From Gammaproteobacteria bacterium (GTDB lineage: Bacteria; Pseudomonadota; Gammaproteobacteria; Burkholderiales; Gallionellaceae), in assembly GCA_018813765.1 (NCBI GenBank), contig JAHJBC010000004.1, forward strand, positions 62,001-126,000: a stretch of 64,000 nt of DNA, in the 5' to 3' direction. The notes under the pieces were generated by a model. It made no database searches. It saw nothing but the letters and a program-made list of their open reading frames with translations, and was not told where the DNA came from. Each line of letters starts with the position of its first letter. The first letter of the stretch is position 1. The translations under genes and the position numbers were made by a program. Positions 33,399 to 56,640 of the stretch are shown one piece after another.

Positions 33399-33575
33399 TA
33401 TTGTCGAGCAGGCGGGTGCGACAATATGACGCATTCCAATCCATCGCAGCCGTACGCATAATCCATTCACCAAGAGGACGGGCGCTTCATCGAATTCTCT
33501 CCTCCTAGAGCCTTCCTTTCCAAAAACACCCCGTGACTCTTGGTCCTCATTTTGATGAGTCTATGTGCGGTGCAA

Positions 33576-34073: not shown

Positions 34074-34091
34074 TCTGTTACGCTGCCCACC

Positions 34092-42343: not shown

Positions 42344-43210
42344 TCAGCCTGCGCCCACCATGCCATGCCTGCGTAACACCTCCAGATAAGTGTCCGGCTC
42401 CGGGCGCACGCGGTAGTTGTCGGTCTCGTGCGTCCACACGATCCGGCCGTCCTTGTCGGTGATGATGACGGTGGGCAATACGGTGTCGCTGTCGTAGCCG
42501 AACATCTGCATGCCCATCGGCGTGCCGTTCCTGTTCTCGATGCCGAGCGCCTTTGCCGCCGCGTTGCCCTCGTCGCTCATGAAGTCGAACTTCACATCGA
42601 ACTTGTTGGCGAGTTCGACCGTGTTGCTGTGCGGCTGCGGGGCGATCAGCACCACGCGCACGCCGAGTTCTGCGATCTCCTTGTAGCGCGCGACCAGTTC
42701 CTTGATCTGCGCCATGCACAGCGGGCACCAATTGCCCCGGTAGAAGATCAGGATGGACGGCTTGCCGGTGAATTGTCCGGATGTGAGATATTTACCGCTG
42801 CTGTCCTTGGCGGAGAAGCCGGGCAGCTTGTTGCCGACGATCAGCTTCATGCTCGGCTCGCGTCCGCCGAAGGTGGAGAACCAGAACGAATAGAGCAGGA
42901 AGCCGATCCAACTGCCCGTTGCCATCATCGCCGGAAGCAGAGCGACATCGAAGTAGAGCCATTCCAGAAAGGCAAGCGCGATGCCGCCTATGCCGAGTAT
43001 GTTGATGAGCGGGAAATGCTCGCTGGTGCGCGCAACGCGTTTGAAGATCATCAGGTAACTGATGACGGTCAGGATCGGGACGACGGTCAGCAGCACACCG
43101 CCCCAGGCCCAGACACTATCGCCCTGATAGAACATCCAGCCCGCATATCCGGCGATCCCCATGATCGCCATCATGTAGGTACTGATAAAAATCGATTTGA
43201 GCAGATTCAT
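42344..43210 (-). CDS. Membrane-anchored peroxiredoxin-like (redoxin) protein
   Basis: This 288-residue protein has four N-terminal helices (about 5-112) followed by an AhpC/TSA-type thioredoxin-fold domain with a CxxC at 'YRGNWCPLCMAQIKEL' (C162, C165). It could be a membrane-linked peroxidase or thiol oxidoreductase. It lies about 60 nt downstream of the carboxymuconolactone decarboxylase-like gene, likely the same operon. It converges on the hypothetical gene ending at 42335. Confidence 0.85.
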   Translation of the reverse strand: MNLLKSIFISTYMMAIMGIAGYAGWMFYQGDSVWAWGGVLLTVVPILTVISYLMIFKRVARTSEHFPLINILGIGGIALAFLEWLYFDVALLPAMMATGSWIGFLLYSFWFSTFGGREPSMKLIVGNKLPGFSAKDSSGKYLTSGQFTGKPSILIFYRGNWCPLCMAQIKELVARYKEIAELGVRVVLIAPQPHSNTVELANKFDVKFDFMSDEGNAAAKALGIENRNGTPMGMQMFGYDSDTVLPTVIITDKDGRIVWTHETDNYRVRPEPDTYLEVLRRHGMVGAG

Positions 43211-43270
43211 GTTGTGACTCCCGAAAGATGGATTTTTCCCGCCGCACCGGAGTGCGGCGGGCGGTGATGG

Positions 43271-43858
43271 TCAGGCGGCTTTTTGGCAGCAACCGGAATC
43301 CTCGGAGATCTCCCACGCCTCGCTGGCGAACGCCACATCCAGCGGCGTGTCGGTCAGGTGGTTGGCGTAGTTGCTCAGTGTCTTCATGGTGACGCCGAGC
43401 ACGACTTCCAATGCGTTGCGCTGGGTGTATCCGGCGCTGAAGAAATCGTTCAGCTCCTGACTGCCCGAGACCCAGCCGCGCTCGCGCACGACGGCCTTGG
43501 TGAATGTCGCCAGTGCGTTCAGTTTCACATCGGGCAGGGGCTGGCCGCTGCGCAGAGCGGCGAGGATGTTGTCGGGCACCTTGACCATGTTGCGGGCCAG
43601 GAAGGAATGGGCCGCCACGCAATAGGCGCAATTGTTCTTCACGCTGACGGCGATGAGAACAACCTGCTGTTCGGTCGGGGAGAGCGTGCTCTTTTCGAGC
43701 AGCGCGCCCAGATCCTTGTAGGCTTCGAGCGCGACAGGCGCCTCGGCCAGATGGGCGTAAAGGTTGGGGATGAAGCCCAGGCCTTTTTCTGCGGCATGGA
43801 GGATGGGTGTTGCCTCGACCGGTGCGGTCGCGAGGTTATGCAATTTGAACGGGTTCAT
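43271..43858 (-). CDS. Carboxymuconolactone decarboxylase/AhpD-like protein
   Basis: This 195-residue protein has the AhpD-like catalytic motif 'NNCAYCVAAHSFLA' (C77, C80, H84) in an all-helical CMD domain. Such proteins reduce peroxides or handle alkyl hydroperoxides, and pair well with the redoxin downstream. The ATG at 43858 is preceded by CAGGAG; the frame extends further upstream without family sequence. The C-terminus ends 'DSGCCQKAA' with two extra Cys. Confidence 0.88.
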   Translation of the reverse strand: MNPFKLHNLATAPVEATPILHAAEKGLGFIPNLYAHLAEAPVALEAYKDLGALLEKSTLSPTEQQVVLIAVSVKNNCAYCVAAHSFLARNMVKVPDNILAALRSGQPLPDVKLNALATFTKAVVRERGWVSGSQELNDFFSAGYTQRNALEVVLGVTMKTLSNYANHLTDTPLDVAFASEAWEISEDSGCCQKAA

Positions 43859-43976
43859 GACGGTCTCCTGAGTTGGTTGAGCAACGATTTGTTGCCTGAG
43901 CCCATTGTCAGGAAGCGGAGGGTTTGCCTCCATGACCGCCAGAAGGTGATTTATGTCTGATCGTCCATTCAACTGC

Positions 43977-44104
43977 CGTCATTCCGGCGAAGGCCGGAAT
44001 CCAGTTGGATAACAGTCGCCCGCAACAGCGGGACACTATTTCGCATTTGTCCGCTTCGCGGAGTATATTTTTTTGGCTGGATACCGGCCTTCGCCGGTAT
44101 GACG
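43977..44104. repeat. Palindromic dispersed repeat, CGTCATTCCGG family
   Basis: Starts CGTCATTCCGGCGAAGGCC and ends in the complement GGCCTTCGCCGG-TATGACG. It lies between the CMD gene and the AraC gene. Confidence 0.85.
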
Positions 44105-44123
44105 GAGCAGGGTTGATCTGCGG

Positions 44124-45026
44124 TCAATTGCCGCGTGCCTTGCCGGGCGGAATGCCGATGATGCGTTTGAACGCTTTGCGGAAAGCGGCTTCCGATTCGT
44201 AGCCGCACTTCATCGCTACATCCAGCATGTTGGCATTGCCGTCGGCAAGCATGCCGCTGGCCAGTTGCATGCGCCATGTGGCGACGAACTCCATCGGCGG
44301 CATCCTCACCAGTTGCGTGAAGCGTTCCGAGAACGCCGAGCGCGACTGGCAGGCGAGACCGGCCATGCGTTCCACCGTCCAGGCTTCAGCGGGCGCGTCG
44401 ATGAAGGCCGTGACGGCGGGGCGCAGGTGTTCGTCCGACAACGTCGCCAGCAGCGGCGACAGTTTCGGTTCCACATGCAACGCATGACGGATCACATACA
44501 GGAACAGCGCATCCGACAGACGATCAAGGATAGCGGTCACGCCCAACTCGTTGCGGGTCGCCTCGATGGTCATCATCTCGATCAGGCTGCGCATCTGAAT
44601 GCCGACCGGGCTTGCATCCGGACGGATCAGCATGAACTCGGGGAAGGAGGCGAGCAGCAGGCGCCGGATATGCGCGGGCAGCCGCAGATGTCCGCACAGC
44701 AAGCCGCTGCCGGGGGCATGCACATCCAGCGGCGCCGGGTGCGAGTAATCGAATGGTTGTTGCGGAATGACGCGGTGGGCGCTGAAGGTGTGCGCCGCAT
44801 CATGCGGGAAGAAGGCGATGTCGCCCGCAGCCATGCGCGCGGGCTCGCTGCCATCCTTCATATGTATCCACGCCTCGCCGTGGCACACCAGATGGAAGGT
44901 CGTGGCGTCAGAGCCGCCGGGTGTGGACATGTGCCATGCATCGCACAACTGGCCGACGTAATACACCTCCGAGCCGAGATGCAGGCGGCGCAGGAAATCG
45001 TCGAGTTGTTGCGTGGGGGCGGGCAT
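44124..45026 (-). CDS. AraC-family transcriptional regulator
   Basis: This 300-residue protein has an N-terminal cupin-like domain ('FHLVCHGEAWIHMKDGSEPARMAAGDIAFFPHDAAHTFSAH') as in AraC-type regulators of the cupin_6 group, and a C-terminal double helix-turn-helix ('WTVERMAGLACQSRSAFSERFTQLVRMPPMEFVATWRMQLA', 'NMLDVAMKCGYESEAAFRKAFKRIIGIPPGKAR'). The divergence to its likely target, the CMD/redoxin genes, is not present: all run the same way. It starts 5 nt after the anti-sigma gene, so it belongs to the sigma operon. Confidence 0.93.
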   Translation of the reverse strand: MPAPTQQLDDFLRRLHLGSEVYYVGQLCDAWHMSTPGGSDATTFHLVCHGEAWIHMKDGSEPARMAAGDIAFFPHDAAHTFSAHRVIPQQPFDYSHPAPLDVHAPGSGLLCGHLRLPAHIRRLLLASFPEFMLIRPDASPVGIQMRSLIEMMTIEATRNELGVTAILDRLSDALFLYVIRHALHVEPKLSPLLATLSDEHLRPAVTAFIDAPAEAWTVERMAGLACQSRSAFSERFTQLVRMPPMEFVATWRMQLASGMLADGNANMLDVAMKCGYESEAAFRKAFKRIIGIPPGKARGN

Positions 45027-45031
45027 CGTGC

Positions 45032-45217
45032 CTACAGTTTGCGCGTCAACTCTTGTGCCGCCTTGCGGATGATGGCGAGCTGTTTTTCAAAGTTGCGGCA
45101 GCCCTTGCACATCATCAGGTGCATTCGCATCGCCATCCGTTCGCGCCAGGTGAGCGGCCGGTCTTGCGATTGCGACAGCAGTTCAGTGTTGTGTTTGCAA
45201 TCCATCAGATGGCTCAT
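45032..45217 (-). CDS. Small zinc-finger anti-sigma factor
   Basis: This 61-residue protein begins MSHLMDCKHNTELLSQSQ and has 'RMAMRMHLMMCKGCRNFEKQL', an H-x3-C-x2-C ZAS motif with an upstream Cys/His, typical of short soluble anti-sigma factors whose zinc site responds to metal or redox change. Its ATG is 2 nt after the sigma stop. The frame opens at 45256 but the ATG at 45217 matches the family. Confidence 0.85.
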   Translation of the reverse strand: MSHLMDCKHNTELLSQSQDRPLTWRERMAMRMHLMMCKGCRNFEKQLAIIRKAAQELTRKL

Positions 45218-45219
45218 GT

Positions 45220-45783
45220 TTACCTCGCATTTCCAAACCAGTTCAGATCGAGGCATTCGCGCAAGGCCAGCCGCGCGCGGTGCAGGATCACCCAGCAGTT
45301 AGTCGTGGAGATGGAGAGTTCCTGACATATCTCGTCTGTAGTCATCTCCATGAACTCGCGCATCATGAAGGCGCGCGCGCTGTTGAGCGGCATGTGCCGG
45401 TTGCATTGCTCGAAAACCTCCCAGAAGTGCGCGTTCTCCATCGCCTGTTCGGGCTCGTTCCAGGTCTGCGGCGGAGACGCCCAGCGTCCGTTCTCCTTGA
45501 ACAGCGCATCGACCAGCTCGTTCTCGTCCTCGCCCTCGGCCACGTTCAGTTGCGGCTCGCGTGCGCGCTTGCGCAGCATGTCCAGTATCTTGTGCTTGAG
45601 GATGCCGACCAGCCAGGTGCGCAGCGATGATTGTGCCGTGAACTTGCTGCGGCCCTCGATGGCCGCGATCAGCGTCTCCTGCACGGCATCCTCCGCCAGA
45701 TGCGGATCGCGCAATTGCAGGATGGCGTAGCGCAGCAGATAGCTGCGGTGCTGTTGCAGGTCGTCGGGATCTATGGCGCTCAT
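45220..45783 (-). CDS. ECF sigma factor (RpoE family)
   Basis: This 187-residue protein has sigma-2 ('YLLRYAILQLRDPHLAEDAVQETLIAAIEGRSKF', 'LRTWLVGILKHKILDMLRKR') and sigma-4 ('MPLNSARAFMMREFMEMTTDEICQELSISTTNCWVILHRARLALRECL'), resembling ECF factors paired with small ZAS anti-sigmas. It heads the sigma/anti-sigma/AraC operon. I infer that it reads the TGTAAGG-N15/16-CGAC promoters at 46852-46916 and 54004-54029; no copy of that motif is seen before its own start. Confidence 0.92.
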   Translation of the reverse strand: MSAIDPDDLQQHRSYLLRYAILQLRDPHLAEDAVQETLIAAIEGRSKFTAQSSLRTWLVGILKHKILDMLRKRAREPQLNVAEGEDENELVDALFKENGRWASPPQTWNEPEQAMENAHFWEVFEQCNRHMPLNSARAFMMREFMEMTTDEICQELSISTTNCWVILHRARLALRECLDLNWFGNAR

Positions 45784-45844
45784 TCAGGCTCCGTAGGGCA
45801 GGGCTGTCGCATGGTAACACCCTCAATAAAGCTGTAAGAGGCAC

Positions 45845-46008
45845 ACCATATACTTCCCCCTTTGCTGCGGAAGGGTCGCTGCGCAGCAGCGGGGTACCCA
45901 CCGGCGTACCCCTTGCGGGTGAAAAAGGGGAACTGAGGGGGATTTAAAATCGTGGCACATCATCCTCTCTCAAATCCCCCCACACCCCCCTTTTGCAAAG
46001 GGGGGCTG
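45845..46008. repeat. Composite palindromic repeat after the sigma gene
   Basis: A TTCCCCCTTTGC...GCAAAGGGGGG palindrome encloses the GCGGAAGGGTCGCTGCGCAGCAGCGGGG/TACCCCTTGCGGGT module also found at 23471-23579, 53516-53652 and 54131-54290. Confidence 0.8.
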
Positions 46009-46015
46009 ATACAGG

Positions 46016-46657
46016 TCAGTGTCGCTGTGGCGCACAAGGATTCGCCGCAGCGCACGGATTACGCGCCGCACAGGGATTCTTCGCCGCGCAAGGATTGACC
46101 CCGGCCATGAATCCCTTCTGCAGCGATGCCGTATACGCCGTCAGTGCCGCCAGATCCTTTCCGCTCCAGGGCAGGGGCTTGGCCGCCATCGGCACCACCA
46201 TGCAGAACTGCACCATCTCGTCCAGATGCACGGCCTTCACGTTGGCGCGCTCATGCGTCATCTGCACCCGGTGCGGATAGGGCTGGGCGAAGCTGTCCTG
46301 GAATGCGCCGTTGTTGTTGTTGTTGTGGCAGGTGTTGCACGACAGGCCGTTGCTGCTCAGCGCGGTGTCGCCGAACAGTTGTTTGCCGCGGGCGATCAGG
46401 TCGGCCTGCTTGCCGCGATAGGGGCGATAGTTGGCCGGGCGCATCACGCCCTTGATGTCCATCTTCACCATCGCTGCCGCACAGGGGTTGGTCGCCGCGC
46501 ATGGATTCTTCGCAGCACAGGGGTTCATGCGCGACGAGCCAGTACGCGGGGCACAGGGATTCGCCGGGCGGCACGGCGCGGCATAGGCCGCGCCGCCCAG
46601 CGACAGGGTCAGCGCGCCGGACGAGACCAGCGCGCGCATCAGGGTTGTGTGTTTCAT
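46016..46657 (-). CDS. c-type cytochrome flanked by NPC-repeat tails
   Basis: This 213-residue exported protein has a Sec signal ending AYA-APC, four NPCAA-type repeats, then a monoheme cytochrome c domain with CNTCH ('NGLSCNTCHNNNNNGAFQ') and Met candidates near 'EMVQFCMVVPM'. Four more repeats (NPCAAK, NPCAAR, NPCAAA, NPCAPQ) end the protein. The N-terminus (SSGAL...AAPC..ANPCA) matches that of the NPC-repeat protein at 53673. AAAGGAG precedes the ATG. It is the second gene after the small Met/Cys-rich peptide, in one operon. The repeats probably bind metal; this is inference. Confidence 0.85.
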   Translation of the reverse strand: MKHTTLMRALVSSGALTLSLGGAAYAAPCRPANPCAPRTGSSRMNPCAAKNPCAATNPCAAAMVKMDIKGVMRPANYRPYRGKQADLIARGKQLFGDTALSSNGLSCNTCHNNNNNGAFQDSFAQPYPHRVQMTHERANVKAVHLDEMVQFCMVVPMAAKPLPWSGKDLAALTAYTASLQKGFMAGVNPCAAKNPCAARNPCAAANPCAPQRH

Positions 46658-46675
46658 ATCGTTCTCCTTTCGCGC

Positions 46676-46801
46676 TCAGGCCAGGAAAAAGTACGCGGCG
46701 ACGCCGACGGCGAGCAGCACCATGACCAGCATCATCTTTTCGTGGATACACATGCCGGGGGTGGTCTCGCAACTGCCGTTCATTTTGCACATCATGGACA
46801 T
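46676..46801 (-). CDS. 41-residue Met/Cys-rich membrane peptide
   Basis: This short gene encodes MSMMCKMNGSCETTPGMCIH followed by a single helix (MMLVMVLLAVGVAAYFFLA). It has nine Met and three Cys, with CAGGAGG at good spacing and a stop 18 nt before the cytochrome gene. The Met/Cys-rich head suggests copper binding. It sits 51 nt downstream of an ECF-type promoter motif on the same strand. No homologous family is recalled. Confidence 0.7.
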   Translation of the reverse strand: MSMMCKMNGSCETTPGMCIHEKMMLVMVLLAVGVAAYFFLA

Positions 46802-46851
46802 ATCAGCCTCCTGTTGGGTTAAGTCACGCTTTGCGACTGTGACGTGCGTTG

Positions 46852-46878
46852 GTCGTGTGTAACCAAATAATCCTTACA
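46852..46878 (-). promoter_or_regulatory. ECF-type promoter for the NPC cytochrome operon
   Basis: Read on the minus strand, TGTAAGG-N16-CGAC. It shares its sequence with the plus-strand promoter at 46891 and the one at 54004. Confidence 0.65.
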
Positions 46879-46890
46879 CACGAAAAACGA

Positions 46891-46916
46891 TGTAAGGAAT
46901 CTGCCTGTCCAACGAC
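46891..46916 (+). promoter_or_regulatory. ECF-type promoter for the thioredoxin operon
   Basis: TGTAAGG-N15-CGAC, ending 45 nt before the thioredoxin start. It is divergent from the matching minus-strand element at 46852-46878. Confidence 0.65.
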
Positions 46917-46960
46917 TAAGCGATACCGATACGACAACCACCCATGTAAAGGAGAGTCCC

Positions 46961-47341
46961 ATGAGAACGCTGATCAAATTGATGGCCATGCTGGCCTTGT
47001 TGTTTCCTGTGTTCGCCCAGGCCGTCGGCGAGCCCTACACCCAGGACAAGCTCGATGCCCTGAACAAGTCCGGCAAACCCGCCTTGGTGTTCATCCATGC
47101 CGACTGGTGCCCGACCTGCCGCGCGCAGGATGCCGTGTTGGAGAAGCTGTTGCCCACCGCCGAGTTCAAACCCATCACCACGCTAAAGGTCGATTTCGAC
47201 ATGCAACAGGAGGTTGTGAAAGCGTTTGGTGTCCGCTATCAGAGCACGCTCATCGTGTTCAAGGGCGGCAAGGAAGTGGCGCGCGTGACCGGCGAGACGG
47301 ATCCCGACAAGCTCGCGGCGCTGCTGCGCAAGGCACTTTAA
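46961..47341 (+). CDS. Exported thioredoxin-family protein
   Basis: This 126-residue protein has a Sec signal (LMAMLALLFPVFAQA-VGE) and a thioredoxin fold with active site HADWCPTC (C50, C53) and cis-Pro replaced by 'YQSTLIVFKGG'. It should work in the periplasm. Directly downstream is a CcdA-type electron conduit, and the promoter motif upstream matches those of the NPC-repeat genes, so it may keep their cysteines reduced. Confidence 0.92.
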   Translation: MRTLIKLMAMLALLFPVFAQAVGEPYTQDKLDALNKSGKPALVFIHADWCPTCRAQDAVLEKLLPTAEFKPITTLKVDFDMQQEVVKAFGVRYQSTLIVFKGGKEVARVTGETDPDKLAALLRKAL

Positions 47342-47345
47342 TTAT

Positions 47346-47401
47346 GTAGGTGCGAATTTATTCGCACATGGATTGCACCGTGCGAATGAATTCGCACCTA
47401 C
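47346..47401. repeat. Palindromic repeat, GTAGGTGCGAAT family
   Basis: GTAGGTGCGAATTTATTCGCAC and complementary GTGCGAATGAATTCGCACCTAC around 12 nt. A second copy is at 58723-58780. Confidence 0.9.
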
Positions 47402-47419
47402 AAGGCAAATGGAGAGCAT

Positions 47420-48145
47420 ATGGAATTAACCGCAACCAGCTACAGCCTGTCGTTCCTGGCTGGCGTGCTGTCCACGCTGTCGCCCTGCGTGTTGCCGCTG
47501 ATTCCCATCCTGATGGGTTCGGCGGCGAGTTCGCATCGTTACGGCACGTTCGCGCTGGTGGGCGGCCTGATGCTGTCGTTCACCCTGATCGGCGTGGCAC
47601 TCGGCTCGCTGGGCGGCAGCATCGGCCTAGAGACGGACACGCTGCGCGTGGTCGGCGGCGTGCTGCTGATCGTGTTCGGGGCGGTGCTGTTTTCGAGCAG
47701 ACTGCAAGAGCACTTCAGCGCAGCAGTCAGTCGGCTGGGCATGGGGCAGGGAATGCTGGCACGTTTCAACCTGAGCGGATTGCACGGTCAGTTCCTGCTG
47801 GGCCTGTTGCTCGGTATCGTGTGGAGCCCGTGCGTCGGCCCCACACTGGGGGTGGCGATCACACTGGCCAGCCAGGGACAGGCGCTGGCACAGGTCACTG
47901 CGGTGATGCTGATATTCAGCCTCGGTGCCGGCCTGCCGCTGCTCGCCATCGGCCTGCTGTCGCGCCAGGCAATGGGCAAATGGCGCGGGCGTATGATGGA
48001 AGCGGGGCAGAAAGCCAAGAAGATCTTCGGTGCTGCGCTGCTGCTGATCGGCGTGCTGGTGCTGTCCGGTGCGGACAAGGGTTTTGAGAAGTGGGCAGTG
48101 AACGCGATGCCCGAGTGGATGGTGACGCTGACTACCCGATATTGA
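47420..48145 (+). CDS. CcdA/DsbD-type cytochrome c biogenesis membrane protein
   Basis: This 241-residue protein has six helices with the paired signatures 'LAGVLSTLSPCVLPLIPILMG' and 'LLLGIVWSPCVGPTLGVAITLA', each with the membrane Cys of the CcdA thiol conduit. It would carry electrons from cytoplasmic thioredoxin to the exported thioredoxin at 46961. The C-terminal end is 'MPEWMVTLTTRY'. Confidence 0.93.
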   Translation: MELTATSYSLSFLAGVLSTLSPCVLPLIPILMGSAASSHRYGTFALVGGLMLSFTLIGVALGSLGGSIGLETDTLRVVGGVLLIVFGAVLFSSRLQEHFSAAVSRLGMGQGMLARFNLSGLHGQFLLGLLLGIVWSPCVGPTLGVAITLASQGQALAQVTAVMLIFSLGAGLPLLAIGLLSRQAMGKWRGRMMEAGQKAKKIFGAALLLIGVLVLSGADKGFEKWAVNAMPEWMVTLTTRY

Positions 48146-48148
48146 ACT

Positions 48149-48271
48149 GTCATTCCCGCGCAGGCGGGAATCCAGTTCATGGAAAGATTCACGCGTAGCG
48201 TGACAGAACCGAAATGCTGTCCGCTACGCGGTGTGTATATATTGCTGGATTCCCGCCTGCGCGGGAATGAC
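48149..48271. repeat. Palindromic repeat, GTCATTCCCGCG family
   Basis: GTCATTCCCGCGCAGGCGGG at one end and complementary CCCGCCTGCGCGGGAATGAC at the other, with a variable centre. Confidence 0.9.
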
Positions 48272-48296
48272 GATTGATGAATGCCAGGAGAATGAC

Positions 48297-49133
48297 ATGT
48301 CCGAAAAAGAATCCCTGTTAAACACCCTTCTCGGCTTGTCGATGATTGTCGAGGCACGCGATCCCTACACCGGCGGCCACCTGTGGCGCGTGTCGCAATT
48401 CTCCAAACTGCTGGCGCAGCAAGCGGGCTTGTCGCGCCGCGACATTGCGCTGTGTGAAGTTGGCGGATTCCTGCACGACCTCGGCAAGGTCGGCGTATCC
48501 GATGCCATCCTCAACAAGCCGGACCGGTTGACCGATCCTGAATACGACATCATCAAGACGCATCCGGCAGTGGGCGGACGTCTGCTGTCCAACCATCCAT
48601 TGGCGAATCTCGCCTTCGACGCCGTGGTCGGCCATCACGAGCGTCCGGACGGAAGAGGCTATCCGCACGGCCTCGCGGGCGAAGTCATCCCCGAGGTCGC
48701 GCGCATCGTCAGCATCGCCGATGCCTTCGACGCCATGACCAGCACACGTGCCTACCGCAAGGGCATGCCGACTGCAAAGGCCTTCACCATCATCGGCGAC
48801 GAGCTGGGCAGGCAATTCGACTCCAGCCTGGCGAAACATTTTCTGTCGCTGAACGCATCCGACCAACTGACCCACATCGTCGGCCACAGCGAACCCGGCC
48901 TGCCGTTGCAACACTGCGGCTGCGGTGCGCCGCTGGCGATACGTAGCGCACAGCGCGATGGCGACCATGTCTACTGCCATTGCTGTGGCAGCGAATCGCG
49001 CCTGAGCAAGCAGGGCGAAGTACGCAAGATCGAGATGACCGGTGCGCGCGGCGACGCCTCCGTGCTGGCGCCCGACAGCGACCCGGACCTGATCGGCGCG
49101 ATGGTGGAAGACATCGCGCCGCATGTGCTGTGA
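48297..49133 (+). CDS. HD-GYP domain c-di-GMP phosphodiesterase-like protein
   Basis: This 278-residue protein has HD at 60-61 ('GGFLHDLGKVGVSDAIL') and HHERPDGRGYP (113-123), the HD-GYP pattern that hydrolyses c-di-GMP. The C-terminal extension has CxC and CHCC clusters ('HCGCGAPLAIR', 'VYCHCCGSESRLSK'), which look like a zinc ribbon and are unusual for this family. No input domain precedes the catalytic core. The ATG at 48297 follows CAGGAG. Confidence 0.92.
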   Translation: MSEKESLLNTLLGLSMIVEARDPYTGGHLWRVSQFSKLLAQQAGLSRRDIALCEVGGFLHDLGKVGVSDAILNKPDRLTDPEYDIIKTHPAVGGRLLSNHPLANLAFDAVVGHHERPDGRGYPHGLAGEVIPEVARIVSIADAFDAMTSTRAYRKGMPTAKAFTIIGDELGRQFDSSLAKHFLSLNASDQLTHIVGHSEPGLPLQHCGCGAPLAIRSAQRDGDHVYCHCCGSESRLSKQGEVRKIEMTGARGDASVLAPDSDPDLIGAMVEDIAPHVL

Positions 49134-49225
49134 TCACTTTGCTCCCTTCTCCCTCTGGGAGAAGGGCTGGGGATGAGGGATGCGTTTTGGGTAATGCGGG
49201 TGAGAGAAAGAAAGCGAGGCCAGCC

Positions 49226-49600
49226 ATGTCCGACCTAAGCAACACAATACAAATCAACGGCCGACAAGTATCAGTCGAATGGACCAAATCCGCCGCCCGC
49301 CAACTGTCGCAACGCGCACAACCCCTGGTGGTCGAACTGGAGCTCTACTTCTCCTGCCTGGTGAAAAAGTTCGTCCACTTCCACGAAACAGCACCGCAAC
49401 GCGAAACCGTCCCCGTCAGCGACAAGCTCGCCGTCTTCTTCCGCCCCGTCACCTCCACCGCCTGCTCGTTCGAAGTCGCCGACCGGCTGGGCAGACAACC
49501 CGAGATCGAACTCGATACACCCAACGTGCGCAAGATCGCGCCCAGACGCGTCAACATCGATTACGTACACGGGGTGTGGAAGGGGCAGTTCTGGATATAA
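49226..49600 (+). CDS. Conserved hypothetical protein
   Basis: This 124-residue protein begins MSDLSNTIQINGRQVSVEWTK, has an HFHETAPQRE motif, 'KLAVFFRPVTSTACSFEVAD' and a basic C-terminus ending 'HGVWKGQFWI'. It looks globular and cytoplasmic. I do not recognise the family. It lies about 90 nt after the HD-GYP gene on the same strand, with a small CTTCTCCCTCTGGGAGAAGG hairpin between them. Confidence 0.7.
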   Translation: MSDLSNTIQINGRQVSVEWTKSAARQLSQRAQPLVVELELYFSCLVKKFVHFHETAPQRETVPVSDKLAVFFRPVTSTACSFEVADRLGRQPEIELDTPNVRKIAPRRVNIDYVHGVWKGQFWI

Positions 49601-49906
49601 CTGATTCTGAGGGGGCGGCTATTCGGCCACTCAGGTCATAGCTCTTAACGAATTCGTTGCCGCAAAACGGACATTGGCGAACTCACACAATCGACCCACA
49701 CCCGACCCACAAGGGGGAGCCTCTGAGCGGCCGCTTGTACTACCAGCGGTCACTGAAGAGGAAGATAATTAGTTCATCTCAATGACCGTAGATAACCCTT
49801 TTGCGACGTTCAGCGCTGCCGGAATCGGACAGTCAGCGCGCTATGGGACATAGGCAATTCTAATATGGAGGCGACGCGGCATGGTGGTTGAAAATAAACT
49901 GTGATG
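49601..49906. other. Intergenic region, no gene seen
   Basis: About 300 bases between the hypothetical gene and the HEPN gene. It marks a change to AT-rich DNA. I see no gene, repeat or clear site. Confidence 0.5.
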
Positions 49907-50878
49907 CTACTCCCTATTAGCTCCATGATCGGGTTTCGGCCAACAGCACCTGGCCAAACCATATATGCATATGGCGCACTGCGCGACTATGCCCATTCCT
50001 TGGGCTATATCACGTCCTCTAAGCTTAAGAAGAGCGCCTTGTGTTTGCGAGTGGTCGCCAGATTTGTTTAGGTATTCCTTGTCTATGATTCCGCATCGGT
50101 GTGCAATTAAATGCCTTCGCAGTCCAAGTTTCCATAATTCATCATCATGAACGTATTTATGTAACGCGGCTTCAAGTTCCTTTTTTTCACCGGGGAGTCC
50201 TAAATACAACTTGCTAAATAAATTTCGAATAAGTTGCGGTGAACTAAAATCTCTGCTGGTTCCAACAATGGTTCCAAGTTTGCCGTTCAAATTAAAGCTA
50301 TGAGACTCAAGCAATGTAAGCCAAGCACTCTGCGAAACAGCAAAATAATCTTTTAGTTCAGAGTGAGTTAGCAGCGTAAGGTAAAGCTGTGATCGCTCGT
50401 TGAGAGAAAGGATGAACACTTCTTTGCAGTATGATTCAAACGCACTCCAAATTAGCAAGATTGCCTGATGCATTAAGCGGATAGACTCTTCGGTGTTAAT
50501 AATTCTCCTTTTTCCAATTTCTAGCCCGCGCAGAGCTATATCCATACTCAACTCAATTTGCTCAGCCATAGGCAGGTCTTGAAAATTATCAGGTCGATGT
50601 TTACTGGTTAATGCGTAAGGGCCTACCAACAAATAAGGGAACTCCAAAAGGTTTTTCGCGGCGATTAGGTTTGTATTCAGAGCTACAAGAGGAGCATGTA
50701 AATCAGGGCACTCAGTAAGCGAAACATTGCTGAGTTTATCAAGACCATCGAAGGGAGTTCTTAAGAAAGGTACCCAATACGATTCTTCCAATTCCTCAGT
50801 GAGGACTCGAAGCTCGTCATTGAAGAGTTCCCCTTTTATGTCAACAGATGTGGGTTTCCCCTCGGTATCTTTTTTCAT
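49907..50878 (-). CDS. HEPN-like hypothetical protein in AT-rich DNA
   Basis: This 323-residue all-helical protein has 'ILLIWSAFESYCKEVFILSLNER' and, near 250-260, 'LRRHLIAHRCGII', an R-x4-H type catalytic motif of HEPN ribonucleases (RiboL-PSP-HEPN group). There is no MNT antitoxin beside it. The gene is AT-rich compared with its surroundings and uses different codons, so it is probably acquired. Possible roles are phage defence or toxin; this is inference. Confidence 0.65.
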   Translation of the reverse strand: MKKDTEGKPTSVDIKGELFNDELRVLTEELEESYWVPFLRTPFDGLDKLSNVSLTECPDLHAPLVALNTNLIAAKNLLEFPYLLVGPYALTSKHRPDNFQDLPMAEQIELSMDIALRGLEIGKRRIINTEESIRLMHQAILLIWSAFESYCKEVFILSLNERSQLYLTLLTHSELKDYFAVSQSAWLTLLESHSFNLNGKLGTIVGTSRDFSSPQLIRNLFSKLYLGLPGEKKELEAALHKYVHDDELWKLGLRRHLIAHRCGIIDKEYLNKSGDHSQTQGALLKLRGRDIAQGMGIVAQCAICIYGLARCCWPKPDHGANRE

Positions 50879-51184
50879 GTCTTCAATTTAGCATTCAATC
50901 AACAGTTGCCTCGATGCAAAAGTTTACAAATTTTGTATATAGCCTCAACAGCGTCTAGGTAACGCAGGTGTCTTCAATTGGCCGATTTGACCCATTCCCG
51001 TATTCTACCTACGAATGTCTCTTGCACAACCGGAACCAGTCGTTCAACTTGGTGCAAGTGATGTTCCGCAATTGGCACATTGCAGTAGCTCAAGTTGCGA
51101 AATTGCCTTCGCTAAAGCGGCCACAAGCGAAGGGCTGTTCCGGCCGATCTGCAGACCTTTACGGAAATCTCGGAGCCGGCGCTA
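50879..51184. other. Intergenic region, no clear gene
   Basis: About 300 bases of low-coding sequence between the HEPN gene and the Cys-rich gene. It may be decayed DNA at the edge of an insertion. I see no RNA gene or repeat. Confidence 0.45.
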
Positions 51185-51406
51185 TTATCCGCAACACCCC
51201 TTGCCATTCTCCTGCACCGGCGGGCACGGCACGCTGCCATAAGAACAGTACACGCAACAATCGCCGGGCTTGGGTTTGAGCAGGGTGTGGCAGTGGGTGC
51301 ATTCGTAGAACCACTGGCAGGCATCTGTCGGCATGGTCTCCAGTTTCTGGTGGCCGCAGTGCGGGCAGGTGAGCAGGGATTCAAGAATGGGGTTGAAAGT
51401 TGACAT
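51185..51406 (-). CDS. Cys-rich GDCCVYCSYG protein
   Basis: This 73-residue protein has 11 cysteines: C14-x2-C17 with 'TCPHCGHQKLE', C30, C36-x2-C39, GDCCVYCSYGSVPCPP (C50, C51, C54, C61) and a terminal GCCG. The GDCC-CSYG motif defines a small family seen near metal genes; it probably binds zinc or other metal. It lies after a fragment of the DUF6969-type C-terminus, suggesting it once followed that gene in an operon. Confidence 0.75.
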   Translation of the reverse strand: MSTFNPILESLLTCPHCGHQKLETMPTDACQWFYECTHCHTLLKPKPGDCCVYCSYGSVPCPPVQENGKGCCG

Positions 51407-51414
51407 GCCCGATT

Positions 51415-51460
51415 CTAACGTCCGGCAATCGCCAATTCCACCATCCACAGCGTCTCCTGA
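51415..51460 (-). pseudogene. Remnant of a DUF6969-type C-terminus
   Basis: Minus-strand codons for ETLWMVELAIAGR and a stop match the C-terminus of the gene at 52723-53481 ('DTLWMVELAIAGRQS'). About 40 bp align with three mismatches. The rest of the gene is absent here, so this is a leftover from duplication or from insertion of the gene at 51594. Confidence 0.7.
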
Positions 51461-51593
51461 AGTAAAAAGTACCGGGGTCGATTTGTTGACTGGAAATGAG
51501 ATCGACGCCTGTACTTTTCCTGCCAATGCAAATTGACGATTGGGTGAACATGTGGTTAATCTTGAGCTTCCCCCCGCTGGAAACGGAGTCAAA

Positions 51594-52619
51594 ATGAAAA
51601 AGTTCAGTGTCGCAACCTTCAACTTGCTCAATCTCAATGAGCCCGGTTTGCCCATGTACAAGGACACCAAGGGCTGGTCTCAGGAACAGTATGACCGGAA
51701 GATTGCCTGGACGGCTCGCCAGATCGACTTGCTCAATGCGGATGTGATGGCCTTCCAGGAGCTGTGGCACGCAGAGTCACTTGGAAAGGCGTTCGATTTG
51801 TCGTCGATGGCGGGTGGCTACCAGCTTCTGGTGCCACCCAATGCGACAGGCAAAAAGATCATCTGTGCGGCGGCTGTTCGACAGGAGATTCCGGTGGAGT
51901 CACTGGAGTGGATCGAGGAATTTCCGGAGGGCTTTGTTCTTGACTCGGGCGGCGGAGATGCGCAGACACCGGCCATCAGTGTCGAGATTAAGGGCTTTTC
52001 ACGTCCGGTATTGCATGCCCTCCTGCGGCTGCACCCTGATGAACCGCTTGTACATCTTTACGTATGCCACTTCAAATCGAAAGCGCCGACCGACCTGTTT
52101 CGCGAGCCTTGGTATGACAAGGAGGTTCATGGTATGCACCACCCGGCACTGGGCGCAGCAGTCTCCACGATTCGCCGCACGGCGGAAGCTGCGGCGATGC
52201 GCGTGATCCTGAACTTGGTAATGAAGGACACAGACCAGCCAGTCATCGTCATGGGTGACATTAATGACGGGCAGAACAGCAATACCCAGAACATCCTGAC
52301 GGGGCAACCCGGCTACCTGTTTGGCGATGCGATGGGGGGCGGCGACACGGTCCTGTACAGCGCGCAGATCATGCAGGAGTTCCGCGATACTCGTGATGTA
52401 CTTTACACCTACTCCCACAAGGGCATGAAGGAGTCGCTGGATCACATCCTGTTCAGCCAGGAGTTCTATGACCAGAGCAAGAAGCGCCGCTGGCTATTTG
52501 ATGGTCTGGTGGTCAATAACGATCACTTGAATCAGGATGACCACAAGGAAAGCGGCACAAATGACCACGGACTAATCAAGGCCAGTTTCATCTATCGCCC
52601 AGTACTCAAGAGTGGTTGA
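51594..52619 (+). CDS. Endonuclease/exonuclease/phosphatase family protein
   Basis: This 341-residue protein has EEP-fold motifs: 'FSVATFNLLNLNEPG' (N), 'DVMAFQEL' (E), 'PVIVMGDINDG' (GDxN) and C-terminal 'SLDHILFSQEF' with 'TNDHGLI' (SDH-like). It is a Mg2+-dependent nuclease or phosphatase of unknown substrate. No signal peptide is seen. It runs opposite to the genes on both sides and separates the DUF6969 gene from the GDCC gene. Confidence 0.88.
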   Translation: MKKFSVATFNLLNLNEPGLPMYKDTKGWSQEQYDRKIAWTARQIDLLNADVMAFQELWHAESLGKAFDLSSMAGGYQLLVPPNATGKKIICAAAVRQEIPVESLEWIEEFPEGFVLDSGGGDAQTPAISVEIKGFSRPVLHALLRLHPDEPLVHLYVCHFKSKAPTDLFREPWYDKEVHGMHHPALGAAVSTIRRTAEAAAMRVILNLVMKDTDQPVIVMGDINDGQNSNTQNILTGQPGYLFGDAMGGGDTVLYSAQIMQEFRDTRDVLYTYSHKGMKESLDHILFSQEFYDQSKKRRWLFDGLVVNNDHLNQDDHKESGTNDHGLIKASFIYRPVLKSG

Positions 52620-52722
52620 AATCGATAGTAGCGTACTCATTCAGTAGTACCGGATCTTTCAGCAGATCGCTGGCTGACGGGGCCATATCTCCACAGGCAT
52701 TTCCATAAGGACGCACCAACAG

Positions 52723-53481
52723 TCAGCTTTGCCGTCCGGCAATCGCCAGTTCCACCATCCATAGCGTATCCTTGACCGAGATTTCCATCTGGCTGGTGAT
52801 GTCCAGTTCTCGATCCTCGAACACATCCTCGCCCGGATGCTGTTCCGCCCAACTCCACACGACTTCGTCACGACGCTTAAGCAGCGCTTCGATGTGCGGG
52901 CGATAGAGCACGAACATCGCGCTGATCCAGCGGTTCACCGGCAATGACGGAAACGCGTGGTCGATGACGAAGCGGTCCAGCATTTGCGTCACCTGTTCGG
53001 CGGGATACCAGGCTTCGGCTGTCACCCAGCGGTTGGTGGTGAACAGGGTGGTTGGAAAGCCGTAGCCGTCCATCGCGATGGCGACCAGATGCGACAGTGC
53101 TTCGTCGCCTTGCGGCCACGGGTCGGTGGCCGTGTATTCGATGGGTGAGACACCGGCGGGCATGCCCTTGGGGCGCAGGAAGCAGTGGAAGTGTCCGTGC
53201 TCGCCCGTTTCGCTGCGGTGCGCGTGATAGTAATACTGCGCATGGCTCTCGCGGTCGTACACGTCGTCTTCGGGGTAGTGGTTGTATTCGTAAAACGTCT
53301 CGCCCTTGTTCAAGGAGTCGCGCAGCACTTCGCCGACGATGTTCAGTTCGGCTTTGCGCAATACGCGGTAGCACTCGTTGATCTCCCGTCCCGCTTCGCG
53401 CATGGCGAGCAACTGTTGCAGCGGCAAGTGCGCAAGATCGGGGGCGACGACCAGCCGCGATGCGAGGCCGGTCGCTGGCAT
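52723..53481 (-). CDS. DUF6969-type protein downstream of the NPC-repeat gene
   Basis: This 252-residue protein has 'EINECYRVLRKAELNIVGEVLR', then a striking 'FYEYNHYPEDDVYDRESHAQYYYHAHRSETGEHGHFHCF' stretch rich in His and Tyr that could hold a metal centre, and C-terminal 'DTLWMVELAIAGRQS'. I place it in the DUF6969 group by pattern. A start further upstream (53775) would read through a dispersed repeat and is rejected. It follows the NPC-repeat gene, so it may be its partner, perhaps a modifying or loading enzyme. Confidence 0.8.
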   Translation of the reverse strand: MPATGLASRLVVAPDLAHLPLQQLLAMREAGREINECYRVLRKAELNIVGEVLRDSLNKGETFYEYNHYPEDDVYDRESHAQYYYHAHRSETGEHGHFHCFLRPKGMPAGVSPIEYTATDPWPQGDEALSHLVAIAMDGYGFPTTLFTTNRWVTAEAWYPAEQVTQMLDRFVIDHAFPSLPVNRWISAMFVLYRPHIEALLKRRDEVVWSWAEQHPGEDVFEDRELDITSQMEISVKDTLWMVELAIAGRQS

Positions 53482-53515
53482 CGTTTGGTTTGTCCTGGAT
53501 TGTTCATTAGCCTCA

Positions 53516-53652
53516 AACCCCCTCCAACTCCCCCTTGCACCCGCAAGGAGTACGCCGGTGGGGGCCCCGCTGCTTCGCAGCGCCCCTTCCGCTGTCAGGG
53601 GGAGAGCCGAACCTGCTCCTCCCCTGACAAGGGGAGGTTGGGAGGGGTTCGG
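53516..53652. repeat. Composite palindromic repeat after the NPC-repeat gene
   Basis: An AACCCCCTCCAACTCCCCC...GGGGAGGTTGGGAGGGGTT palindrome with the CACCCGCAAGG...GCTGCTTCGCAGC module inside, akin to 32811-32894 and 54131-54290. Confidence 0.8.
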
Positions 53653-53672
53653 TTCTAATGGATTTTCCGGCT

Positions 53673-53951
53673 TTAATGCGCTGCGCATGGGTTTTTTGCG
53701 CCGCAGGGGTTCTTCCCGGCACAGGGATTCTTCGCCGCGCAAGGATTGGCCTTCTTTTTGGATTTCGCCATGCACGGGTTCTTGCTGGCACAGGGATTCT
53801 TTCCGGCGCAGGGATTGGCGGCGGCTGACTTGGCAGAACGCGCCGCACAGGGATTGGCTGCGCCGCAGGGGGCTGCCATGGCTGCGCCGCTCATGGCCGC
53901 AGCCAGCGCGCCGGAAGAGATCAGGGATTTTGCGATTGTGTTGAGTTTCAT
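53673..53951 (-). CDS. NPC-repeat cysteine-rich exported protein
   Basis: This 92-residue protein has a Sec signal (SLISSGALAAAMSGAAMA-APC) and then eight NPC(A/G/M)(A/S/G)(K/R/H) units plus one more Cys, nine cysteines in 66 mature residues, with Lys-rich spacers. The regular spacing suggests a metal-binding or metal-buffering peptide, possibly modified. The signal peptide and first repeats match those of the cytochrome at 46016. A TGTAAGG-N15-CGAC promoter motif lies 53 nt upstream. It is followed by the DUF6969 gene. Confidence 0.85.
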   Translation of the reverse strand: MKLNTIAKSLISSGALAAAMSGAAMAAPCGAANPCAARSAKSAAANPCAGKNPCASKNPCMAKSKKKANPCAAKNPCAGKNPCGAKNPCAAH

Positions 53952-54003
53952 GGTGCTCTCCTTGGTGGTGATGGCAAGGCCGAAATGGCGGATGCAGGCA
54001 TTG

Positions 54004-54029
54004 GTCGGCGCAAGACCGAATACCTTACA
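54004..54029 (-). promoter_or_regulatory. ECF-type promoter for the NPC-repeat operon
   Basis: On the minus strand TGTAAGG-N15-CGAC, 53 nt before the gene start at 53951, matching the pair at 46852-46916. Confidence 0.65.
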
Positions 54030-54130: not shown

Positions 54131-54290
54131 ACGTTCCCCACTTTGCAAAAGGGGGGCTAGGGGGGATTTGCGAGAGGATAGGTAACACCAAGTTTTCAAA
54201 TCCCCCTCAGTCCCCCTTGTACCCGCAAGGGGTACGCCGGTGGGTACCCCGCTGCTGCGCAGCGACCCTTCCGCAGTCCAAAGGGGGAAG
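54131..54290. repeat. Composite palindromic repeat
   Basis: CCCCACTTTGCAAAAGGGGGG opens and CCAAAGGGGGAAGTGG closes, with the ACCCGCAAGGGGTACGCCGG...GCTGCTGCGCAGCGACCC module inside. Confidence 0.8.
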
Positions 54291-54311
54291 TGGTGGGTGC
54301 CGCCGAGGGCG

Positions 54312-54392
54312 GCAGGATGGGTGGAGTGCAACGATACCCATCAATCTACATTGGCCAGGCGATGGGTATCGCTGCGCTCCACCCATCCTACG
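54312..54392. repeat. Palindromic repeat, GTAGGATGGGTGGAGC family, second copy
   Basis: Starts GCAGGATGGGTGGAGTGC and ends GCTCCACCCATCCTACG; second copy of the element at 13259-13330 with a longer loop. Confidence 0.85.
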
Positions 54393-54400
54393 ACTGCTGT

Positions 54401-54511
54401 AAGAGCCCCCCTTTGAAAAGGGGGGGAGGGGGGATTTGCGGCAGGATGCTATTTTTCGGTCCGCAAAATCCCCCTCCCGTCCCCCTTTTCCAAAGGGGGA
54501 AGCTGATGTTT
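54401..54511. repeat. Palindromic G-rich/C-rich repeat
   Basis: GAGCCCCCCTTTGAAAAGGGGG and complementary CCCCCTTTTCCAAAGGGGGA around a variable middle; same family as 59219-59312. Confidence 0.8.
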
Positions 54512-55233: not shown

Positions 55234-56640
55234 ATGCAAGCCAAAGACATCGCCGAATTGCTGAACGAACCGGCCTGCGCACATAACAAGAAGGAGAAAT
55301 CCGGTTGTGCGCGTCCCAAGCCGGGTGCGACGGCGGGCGGTTGCTCGTTCGACGGGGCGCAGATCGCCTTGCTGCCCATCGCCGACGTGGCGCACATCGT
55401 GCACGGGCCCATCGCCTGTGCGGGCAGTTCATGGGAAGGGCGCGGCACGCGATCGTCGGGACCGAAGCTGTTCCGCATCGGCATGACCACCGACCTCACC
55501 GAGCAGGACATCATCATGGGACGCAGCGAGAAGCGCCTGTTCCATGCCATCAAGCAGGCGGTGGATAGCTACTCGCCAGCCGCAGTCTTTGTCTACAACA
55601 CCTGCGTGCCGGCCATGATAGGCGACGATATCGGCGCGGTATGCGCTGCCGCAGCCGAGAAATGCGGCGTGCCGGTGGTGCCGGTGGACTGCGCCGGTTT
55701 CTACGGCACCAAGAATCTGGGCAACCGCATCGCGGGTGAAGCGATGTTCAAATATGTGGTGGGCACGGCGGAACCGTTGCCGGTGCCGCCCGAAGCACAA
55801 CGACCCGGCATCACCGTGCATGATGTGAATCTGATCGGCGAATACAACATCGCGGGCGAATTCTGGAACGTGGCGCCGCTGTTCGACGAACTCGGCCTGC
55901 GCATCCTGTGCACGCTCTCCGGCGATGGCCGCTTCCGCGAAGTACAGACCATGCACCGCGCCGAGGCCAACATGGTGGTGTGCGCCAAGGCGCTGCTCAA
56001 TGTCGCGCGCAAGCTGCAGACCGACTACAAGACGCCATTCTTCGAAGGCAGTTTCTACGGCGTGACCGACACCTCGATGGCGTTCCGCGAATTCGCCAAG
56101 CTGTTGAATGACCCGTCGCTGACCGAACGCACCGAGGCATTGATCGCGAGGGAAGAGGCGAAGATCAACGCCGCACTCGATCCCTGGCGCGAGCGGTTGC
56201 GCGGCAAGCGCGTGTTGCTTTATACCGGCGGCGTGAAGTCGTGGTCGATTGTGTCCGCGCTGCAGGATCTGGGCATGGAAGTCGTCGCCACCGGCACGAA
56301 TAAATCAACGGAAGAAGACAAGGCGCGCATCCGCGAGATCATGGGCGAGAAGACCCGCATGATCACCGACGGCAGTCCCAAAGCGCTGCTCGGCGCGGTG
56401 AAGGAATACCAGGCCGACATCCTCATCGCCGGCGGCCGCAACATGTACACCGCGATGAAGGCGCGCATCCCCTTCCTCGACATCAACCAGGAACGCGAAT
56501 TCGGCTACGAGGGCTACAGCGGCATGCTCGAACTCGCGCGCCAGCTCGCGCTGACGATACAGAGCCCGGTGTGGCCGGCGGTGCGGAAGAGTGCGCCGTG
56601 GGCGAAGGCGGGTGTGCCGGGTGTGGAGTTGGGGGCGTGA
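55234..56640 (+). CDS. nifE: Nitrogenase FeMo-cofactor scaffold subunit NifE
   Basis: This 468-residue protein has the NifE pattern: '[49 protein letters not shown]', '[14 protein letters not shown]', '[23 protein letters not shown]' and C-terminal '[22 protein letters not shown]'. With NifN it forms the scaffold where NifB-co matures to FeMo-co before transfer to NifDK. The conserved Cys residues that hold the cluster are present. Length is normal. It heads the nif operon behind a sigma-54 promoter. Confidence 0.97.

Follow-up and report, generated by a model that had tools for sequence, protein, structure and literature searches.

In the SigF/NrsF system (MrpX/YedY1), a methionine-rich exported peptide controlled by an extracytoplasmic function (ECF) sigma factor acts sacrificially to scavenge hypochlorite. 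Bufferins are described, in the accessible portion of one report, as copper-chelating (PMC12452194). The available part of a study of neisserial sigma-E gives a regulon of MsrA/B and the sigma operon, with a −35 consensus of GTMAGBWTT and a −10 consensus of CGTCTAAH (PMC2893595), and a partly accessible study of H. influenzae examines an RpoE2 mutant exposed to HOCl and the expression of DUF2063-, DoxX- and UPF0276-type genes (PMC7907618). The present analysis concerns a locus at positions 45032-54029 of a 64,000-nucleotide stretch of Gallionellaceae DNA (GCA_018813765.1, contig JAHJBC010000004.1, positions 62,001 to 126,000), hereafter the window, in which exported proteins with tandem NPC (Asn-Pro-Cys) repeats are grouped with an ECF sigma factor, a zinc-finger anti-sigma factor and a member of the family DUF6969. 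The locus points to an undescribed cell-envelope stress system. With a probability of about one half, it is a cell-envelope stress module under a single pair of ECF sigma factor and soluble zinc anti-sigma factor (ZAS), organized as a periplasmic thiol system with DUF6969 as its cytosolic partner.

An earlier note on this DNA, made from the letters alone, had described two exported NPC proteins of eight NPC units each, both of which are present as it described them, and had grouped them with a sigma/anti-sigma pair, a thioredoxin, a CcdA-type protein, a GDCC-domain protein and DUF6969, assignments that Pfam and NCBIfam now back. All of its open reading frames (ORFs) were found where it placed them. 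It had taken the larger NPC protein for a repeat protein; the repeats are there, and the c-type cytochrome that carries them (CNTCH motif, PF21342) had been missed. The parts of the locus, in window positions, are as follows.

45032..45256, minus strand: soluble zinc-finger anti-sigma factor, ZAS (NCBIfam NF052368, antisigmaE, 77.8 bits, cut-off 50; zf-HC2 in Pfam)
45220..45783, minus strand: ECF sigma factor of the TIGR02943 family (254 bits, cut-off 162)
46016..46657, minus strand: exported monohaem c-type cytochrome with NPC repeats on its flanks, 8 NPC in all (PF21342, CCP_MauG)
46325..46339, minus strand: haem-binding motif CNTCH of the cytochrome, residues 107-111 (both Cys and the His invariant in 29/29 aligned)
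46202..46204, minus strand: Cys152 of the cytochrome, predicted distal haem ligand (invariant in 29/29 aligned; matches a SoxA Cys)
46676..46801, minus strand: Met/Cys-rich peptide of 41 aa with a single hydrophobic segment; lies upstream in the cytochrome unit
46850..46878, minus strand: ECF-type promoter of the 41-aa peptide/cytochrome unit (motif match)
46891..46918, plus strand: ECF-type promoter of the thioredoxin/CcdA unit (motif match)
46961..47341, plus strand: exported thioredoxin (PF00085, E 5e-15; signal peptide judged by eye)
47420..48145, plus strand: CcdA-type membrane thiol-electron transporter (PF02683, DsbD_TM, E 5e-18)
51185..51406, minus strand: Cys-rich protein with a GDCCVxC domain (NF041374, 109 bits, cut-off 40)
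52723..53481, minus strand: DUF6969 protein (PF22308, 280 bits, cut-off 27; invariant HxH and ExGHFH-type motifs)
53673..53951, minus strand: small exported NPC-repeat peptide of 92 aa, 8 NPC, no haem motif (repeat count, ORF)
54002..54029, minus strand: ECF-type promoter of the NPC peptide-DUF6969 unit (motif match)

Start codons are those read in the analysis (DUF6969 at 53481, the GDCC gene at 51406), and signal peptides throughout were judged by eye, not by a predictor. The cytochrome and the NPC peptide are both encoded on the minus strand, have similar signal-peptide-like N-termini and share an 18-nt period in the DNA of their repeats; a cytochrome query of the genome matches only these two genes. 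Homologues of the 41-aa peptide occur at the loci of six relatives (L069, L070, L071, L072, L076 and L080, duplicates excluded) and additionally at L078 and L171.

The promoter shared by the three units is supported by computation. In the whole 3.14 Mb genome, the motif TGTAAGG-N14-17-CGACYA has three matches, all at this locus, against one for the reversed control; within the window, three matches compare with a shuffle mean of 0.01. The sites precede the 41-aa-peptide/cytochrome, thioredoxin/CcdA and NPC-peptide/DUF6969 units, 43-51 bp ahead of the first start codon of each, and the GDCCVxC gene has no strict motif of its own in the genome scan. Relatives were compared in a hand-chosen set of 24 genomes: 12 are NPC-positive, three of which belong to other genera, and 12 are NPC-negative, all sharing the same genus. 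The motif is present in 11/12 of the former (33 sites; reversed control, 6 sites) and in 2/12 of the latter (2 sites; reversed control, 5 sites), and single sites can be matters of chance because the reversed control gives five in the NPC-negative genomes. One of the two NPC-negative sites falls inside a long ORF (genome G014, L306), and the other lies some 50 bp ahead of DUF2282 and MNIO genes (G029, L307). The recurrence of one motif at three promoters, described in the earlier note, is borne out, and the sigma control proposed there is favored.

The same signal is found upstream of NPC genes more widely, in sets that include the relatives of the window and leave out genes with under 200 bp of upstream sequence or lacking a signal-like start. 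A relaxed form of the motif precedes 49 of 157 NPC genes. Reading these stretches on the opposite strand gives 14, perhaps reflecting divergent promoters, and the letter-shuffle mean is 0.85; the strict form precedes 25/157 (other strand, 8). TGTAAG..CGAC is also the top dyad found de novo in these regions (33/157; shuffle maximum, 8). Among 11 gammaproteobacterial genes, the de novo dyad is TGTAAT..GTCT, present in 5 (shuffles, 2). The window motif resembles the neisserial sigma-E consensus as given in the accessible part of that report (PMC2893595). From sequence, ECF control of the three units is well supported as a prediction.

In relatives, this promoter type extends to bufferin-type genes. 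A motif site in G058 precedes DUF2282, MNIO, DUF2063 and DoxX genes with an ECF/ZAS pair alongside, to which the window ECF and ZAS are 62% and 44% identical, respectively. Another site in the same genome stands just before an MsrB (SelR) gene, with MsrA farther along the stretch (L303:1697-5017), and in G029 MsrA shares the stretch with the motif site (L307:1548-2650), hinting at a wider shared regulon. G388 carries NPC peptides, DUF6969 and MNIO in succession, with looser TGTAAGG..CGAC sites between them. The motif also precedes a radical SAM/DUF3641 gene (Pfam) in G044 and G058 (L304:3701-4779, L308:1469-2542).

These arrangements bear directly on the strongest alternative, in which the NPC repeats would be a pure metal buffer that chelates Cu(I)/Zn(II) in the manner of bufferins or metallothioneins, with DUF6969 loading or modifying them and the cytochrome accompanying them in a secondary role, such as that of a copper-sensitive electron sink. 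The motif before the DUF2282/MNIO genes of G058 and G029, the MNIO gene directly after NPC-DUF6969 in G388 and the copper chelation attributed to bufferins in the accessible portion of their report (PMC12452194) all favor such a role. The repeat-tagged cytochromes and NPC-thioredoxin fusions described below suggest redox work instead, and the window places thioredoxin-CcdA under the same promoter as the repeats. On balance, a metal buffer alone is unlikely, if the best placed of the alternatives.

The second observation that carries the stress module is the recurrent genomic partnership, supported by computation, of DUF6969 with exported Cys-tandem-repeat peptides. DUF6969 is the commonest family among sampled neighbors of NPC genes (20/145; 145 of 289 proteins drawn at random, at most two per locus and none above 700 aa), and the 25 families shown, out of 86 in this sample, do not include MNIO, DUF2282, DUF2063 or DoxX. 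In a class-wide sample, DUF6969 occurs in 26/274 genomes and the NPCAAxNPC pattern in 6/274; five of the six pattern-bearing genomes, the present one included, also have DUF6969 (Fisher 3e-5), the sixth being G314. A phylum-wide sample gives DUF6969 in 11/299 genomes. Approached from the other side, 36 DUF6969 loci from two evenly drawn samples were scored for an ORF on the same strand and within 1 kb that combines a signal-like start with a thrice-repeated Cys triplet. Such an ORF is present at 24/36, in 23 cases upstream, compared with 3/36 on the opposite strand (Fisher 2e-7) and 3/28 stretch-strands among 3.6-kb stretches of the window outside the locus (5e-6). Five further loci (L202, at a distance of ~940 bp, L206, L218, L222 and L283) have a repeat ORF visible by eye that fails the automated rule, and they are scored as misses in the 24/36. 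The link between DUF6969 and repeat proteins is stronger than the earlier note had it.

The units repeated beside DUF6969 are varied, comprising NPCAAK, GGNPCAPSAR, NPCGPKK, SPC(G/S)L, GCCGCC, CAATCAAT and GCCAAE, and the two main types match the two main groups of the family. In a 36-row tree, a 100/98 branch separates the 11 rows of the SPCxL group from the 16 rows of the NPC group; the minor repeat types add little to this match because each has only one or two rows, and two of the pairs come from within a single genus. Nine rows belong to no group, the repeat labels were assigned by the analyst (L219, with NPCSLD, was placed with SPCxL, and three rows were placed with NPC on the strength of repeats present only at other sites in the genome), and the tool issued a long-branch warning. 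A second DUF6969 clade (L216-L224, L226, L283) is accompanied by a distinct family of short peptides with an N-terminus like GSA-GLAA-A-AIDHTRH and repeats of the SPC(G/S)L type.

The DUF6969 protein itself has no signal peptide evident by eye. Thirty-five aligned members keep H86, H88, E94, H97, H99, H131, N150 and W152 (numbering of the window protein), which suggests a metal site. The AlphaFold2 model is confident (pLDDT 93.9), with no Foldseek match in the PDB at E<=0.001 (best, 0.82) and no convincing relative in a HMMER search of the PDB (best E, 0.089); homology of the fold to known PDB structures was dropped on these values. In a literature search with most subscription-journal papers outside its scope, no paper was found that names DUF6969, that contains NPCAAKNPCAAK or that joins cytochrome P460 with a cysteine-rich periplasmic NPC repeat.

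The NPC repeat is carried by more than one kind of protein. A scan of named species genomes gave at least 119 stretches with the NPC pattern, and those listed come mostly from Proteobacteria, with Rokubacteria, Nitrospinota, Tectomicrobia, a few cyanobacteria and one Bacillota record, the last a locus with no ORF of three NPC. Among the matches listed, 110 of 113 retained loci (several of which share a genome or contig, so that loci are not genomes) have an ORF with at least three NPC. Within these 110, a haem-bearing NPC ORF occurs in 70, an NPC ORF without CxxCH in 70 and both in 30, and the DUF6969 motif, sought directly in all six frames, lies inside the stretch (<=8 kb) in 52. The haem domains are SoxA-like at 39 of the loci, P460-like at 17, of a third, CHPRGRT type at 5 and untyped at 9. 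A Cytochrome_P460 domain is backed by Pfam in two examples of the P460-like loci, and two examples of the third type have no Pfam match. In some cyanobacteria, the repeat is fused to thioredoxin with a DsbD_TM (CcdA-type) gene alongside. NPC repeats are additionally found within a DUF6789 protein (L187:4201-4878) and a protein with no Pfam match at E<=0.01 (L176:3033-3596). The NPC-unit and neighbor counts drew on loci L062 to L200 plus the window; duplicate loci (L111, L113, L124, L131, L181, L185) were dropped from the distribution, neighbor, promoter and haem-type counts and kept in the NPC-unit counts and the search for 41-aa peptide homologues.

That thioredoxin and three kinds of haem domain (SoxA-like, P460-like and third-type) all carry one repeat might be read as the mark of a structural tag, the Cys-rich tails cross-linking or anchoring redox domains to a peptide scaffold and DUF6969 serving as a chaperone that keeps thiols reduced before export. 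The low confidence with which the repeats are modelled, as disordered segments are, is in keeping with this idea, and the enzyme-like invariant His/Glu/Asn/Trp residues of DUF6969 argue against it, making a purely structural role improbable.

The haem domain of the window cytochrome, the third computationally supported element, is related to SoxA and TsdA. The protein matches PF21342 (SoxA-TsdA_cyt-c, E 5e-8, 33.2 bits against a cut-off of 27) and CCP_MauG (E 7e-6), both above cut-off, and this domain rules out a pure repeat protein at 46016-46657. Its score against the NCBIfam SoxA equivalog TIGR04484, 31.5 bits, is far under the cut-off of 110. The first PDB match of a profile built from 29 haem domains is SoxA (1h31_A, E 1.2e-5); di-haem peroxidases and MauG rank after it and match around the haem motif. 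In this profile match, C152 aligns with a Cys in the N-terminal SoxA domain, and the corresponding C-x-x-x-P-M/L motif is found in 53/54 SoxA-type rows, consistent with the prediction that Cys152 is the distal haem ligand. Foldseek places TsdA/SoxA in the top ranks for the cytochrome model, at E 0.13 at best; because the repeats are modelled poorly and no Foldseek value is better than this, the assignment rests on the profiles. One report describes TsdA as forming an S-thiosulfonate at its haem Cys ligand, and SoxAX as coupling thiosulfate to the Cys of a carrier (PMC4423706). Because the conserved Cys aligns with SoxA, and by analogy to this chemistry, a His/Cys haem able to act on the thiols of the repeat cysteines is plausible.

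By the same analogy, the NPC cysteines could be sulfur carriers, to which the SoxA-like haem would oxidatively couple thiosulfate or sulfane sulfur as SoxAX does to SoxYZ. The SoxA/TsdA domain with its conserved Cys and the SoxAX precedent, within the accessible part of its report (PMC4423706), favor the proposal, as do Sulf_transp and DUF302 clusters, each near NPC genes at 11/134 listed loci (one representative of each annotated). In such a system, thioredoxin-CcdA would be equivalent to SoxW-SoxV, its counterpart pair in the Sox system. Against it, many alphaproteobacterial loci have a P460-type haem instead, and the sigma type in control here is linked with MsrA/B and with genes of the bufferin type. 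Sulfur carriage is quite improbable as the function of the locus. A low-complexity artefact without common function, suggested by the simple composition of the repeats, has a negligible chance of being correct given the recurrent neighbors, the shared promoter and the match of DUF6969 groups to repeats; the NPCAAKNPC DNA pattern occurs in 8/200 genomes of the order, and the repeat is not a chance product because the reversed control is found in 0/200. Relatives that match the cytochrome at E<=1e-3 number 23/100, own genome counted, 14 of them strongly (E<=2e-57) and the rest weakly.

Returning to the stress module, the stress signal, the chemistry, the role of DUF6969 and the association of its parts through the repeats can be inferred along the following lines. 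One ECF/ZAS pair would switch on the three units via one promoter type. In the cytoplasm, DUF6969, probably a metal protein by virtue of its invariant His/Glu cluster, would bind the cysteine repeats or chemically mature them ahead of Sec export. Once in the periplasm, they may form a dense thiol sink for oxidants or soft metals, such as reactive chlorine or copper. The cytochrome might be held to the NPC peptide through the common repeat, where its His/Cys-ligated haem could take electrons from the repeat thiols or make S-S bonds on them, and thioredoxin-CcdA would re-reduce these thiols. The module would operate in parallel with bufferins, whose genes bear the same promoter motif in relatives.

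An oxidant role is favored by the genes next door. Beyond the ECF/ZAS pair, at 42344-45026 on the minus strand, lie an AraC regulator, a CMD-family gene and an AhpC/TSA gene, possibly an oxidant-defence neighborhood; the top NCBIfam match of the AraC regulator is RclR (reactive chlorine), at 110 bits below a cut-off of 400. A redox role is favored by the cyanobacterial NPC-thioredoxin fusion beside a DsbD_TM gene.

Several observations weigh against the stress module or narrow it. Thioredoxin and CcdA-type genes are a minority feature near NPC genes (10 and 11 of 134 listed loci, respectively), and the adjacent sigma pair is likewise in the minority (ECF 23, ZAS 13); all are lower bounds because most stretches are at most 8 kb and genes were missed by automated ORF picking, which took the wrong frame for some genes, lost the window's own ECF and thioredoxin from the counts and left 9 of the 134 loci with an ORF cluster read as antisense DUF6969. 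The earlier suggestion that thioredoxin-CcdA keeps the repeats reduced thus gains from the cyanobacterial fusion and loses from the adjacency counts, and the expected co-occurrence of NPC repeats with the sigma pair and redox partners is seen at a minority of loci. Seven of the 36 DUF6969 loci have no adjacent repeat peptide even by eye, three of them in genomes with NPC repeats elsewhere. Conversely, DUF6969 is not obligatory for NPC repeats, because a search of 38 NPC-bearing genomes, picked mainly for loci without DUF6969 nearby (40 loci, L121 left out) and of unknown completeness, gave no match in 15, and G314 likewise had none. P460 loci have no de novo dyad clearly above shuffles (top, 4/23; shuffles, 3). 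One haem chemistry cannot cover all NPC loci, because P460-type (17), third-type (5) and untyped (9) haem domains among the 110 listed also carry the repeat. The NPC repeats of the cytochrome are modelled at low confidence, and a link of the module to HOCl or copper is drawn by analogy only.

A broader proposal is tentative and less likely than not: DUF6969 may found a new class of cytosolic enzymes that work without MNIO and chemically alter the cysteines of Sec-exported Cys-tandem-repeat peptides (NPCAAK, SPCGL, GCCGCC, GCCAAE). The peptides would be a second exported thiol/metal scavenger family under bufferin-type ECF control, and redox enzymes (SoxA-like and P460-like cytochromes, thioredoxin) would be drawn in by bearing the same modified repeat. 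The analysis connects a Pfam family of unknown function, whose predicted structure is confident and unmatched in the PDB, with a defined class of partner peptides in Proteobacteria (the NPC repeat also reaching a few other phyla), offers a testable hypothesis for the family and for the peptides alike, and reveals that several different redox domains bear one and the same cysteine repeat. With an added branch of the bufferin-type ECF regulon, cells lacking MNIO could mount a comparable defence.

Other features were noted around these genes. A G/C-rich dispersed intergenic repeat, with C-run/G-run arms and a GTACCCACCGGCGTACCCC-like core, is visible by eye at 45850-46005, 53510-53640 and 54140-54500. 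A nitrogenase component 1-type gene (Oxidored_nitro) adjoins the locus at 55234-56640 on the plus strand, and at 33540-35015 lies another ECF-type sigma gene, after which come a FecR gene (Pfam) and ORFs that resemble TonB receptors by eye. The clusters recurring near NPC genes at the 134 listed loci are FGE-sulfatase-like (17), multihaem cytochrome (15), DUF3179 (13), DUF302 (11) and Sulf_transp (11), each label resting on one annotated representative.

Set beside known systems, the SoxA/TsdA cytochromes share with the window cytochrome a c-type haem, the SoxA-TsdA_cyt-c Pfam domain and the conserved Cys; unlike that family, the window protein has one haem, NPC repeats on its flanks and a sub-cut-off SoxA equivalog score. 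The SigF/NrsF system (MrpX/YedY1) has in common the idea of a sacrificial exported peptide under sigma control, with the difference that its peptide is Met-rich and the window repeats present Cys; no search for a YedY-type reductase was made. The neisserial sigma-E/ZAS regulon, so far as its accessible description extends, is similar in its ECF factor with a ZAS, its GTAAG/CGWC-type promoter and its small size, and differs in containing MsrA/B, since none of the three strict motif sites of the present genome is at an Msr gene. NPC/DUF6969 units are not mentioned for it, or for H. influenzae RpoE2, in the available parts of those reports.

The bufferin operons (BufA/DUF2282, MNIO/DUF692, DUF2063, DoxX) are like the window in their ECF factor and zinc anti-sigma factor, Sec-type signal peptide, exported Cys-containing peptide and cytosolic partner gene directly downstream. 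They differ in that the window has DUF6969 rather than MNIO, NPC tandem repeats rather than DUF2282 and, additionally, a repeat-tagged cytochrome. MNIO (PF05114) has no match in the genome, which is 99.76% complete (2/14 control genomes positive), and is present in 25/47 NPC/DUF6969 genomes tested. The NPC peptide has no Pfam family at E<=1 and, in NCBIfam, matches only BufA2 (E 0.35, 11.1 bits, cut-off 60). The likeness to bufferins without their maturase, as drawn in the earlier note, holds in these results and in the motif before DUF2282/MNIO genes of two relatives; plain membership is ruled out by the missing MNIO match and BufA-type score. Bufferin-type control by an ECF sigma factor and zinc anti-sigma factor is nevertheless present in the window, as judged by the identity of the pair to that of G058 and by the same motif upstream of the bufferin-type genes of G058 and G029. 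The system is at least a variant of the bufferin-type, sigma-controlled exported Cys peptides, and might be a new class should DUF6969 prove to be a maturase.

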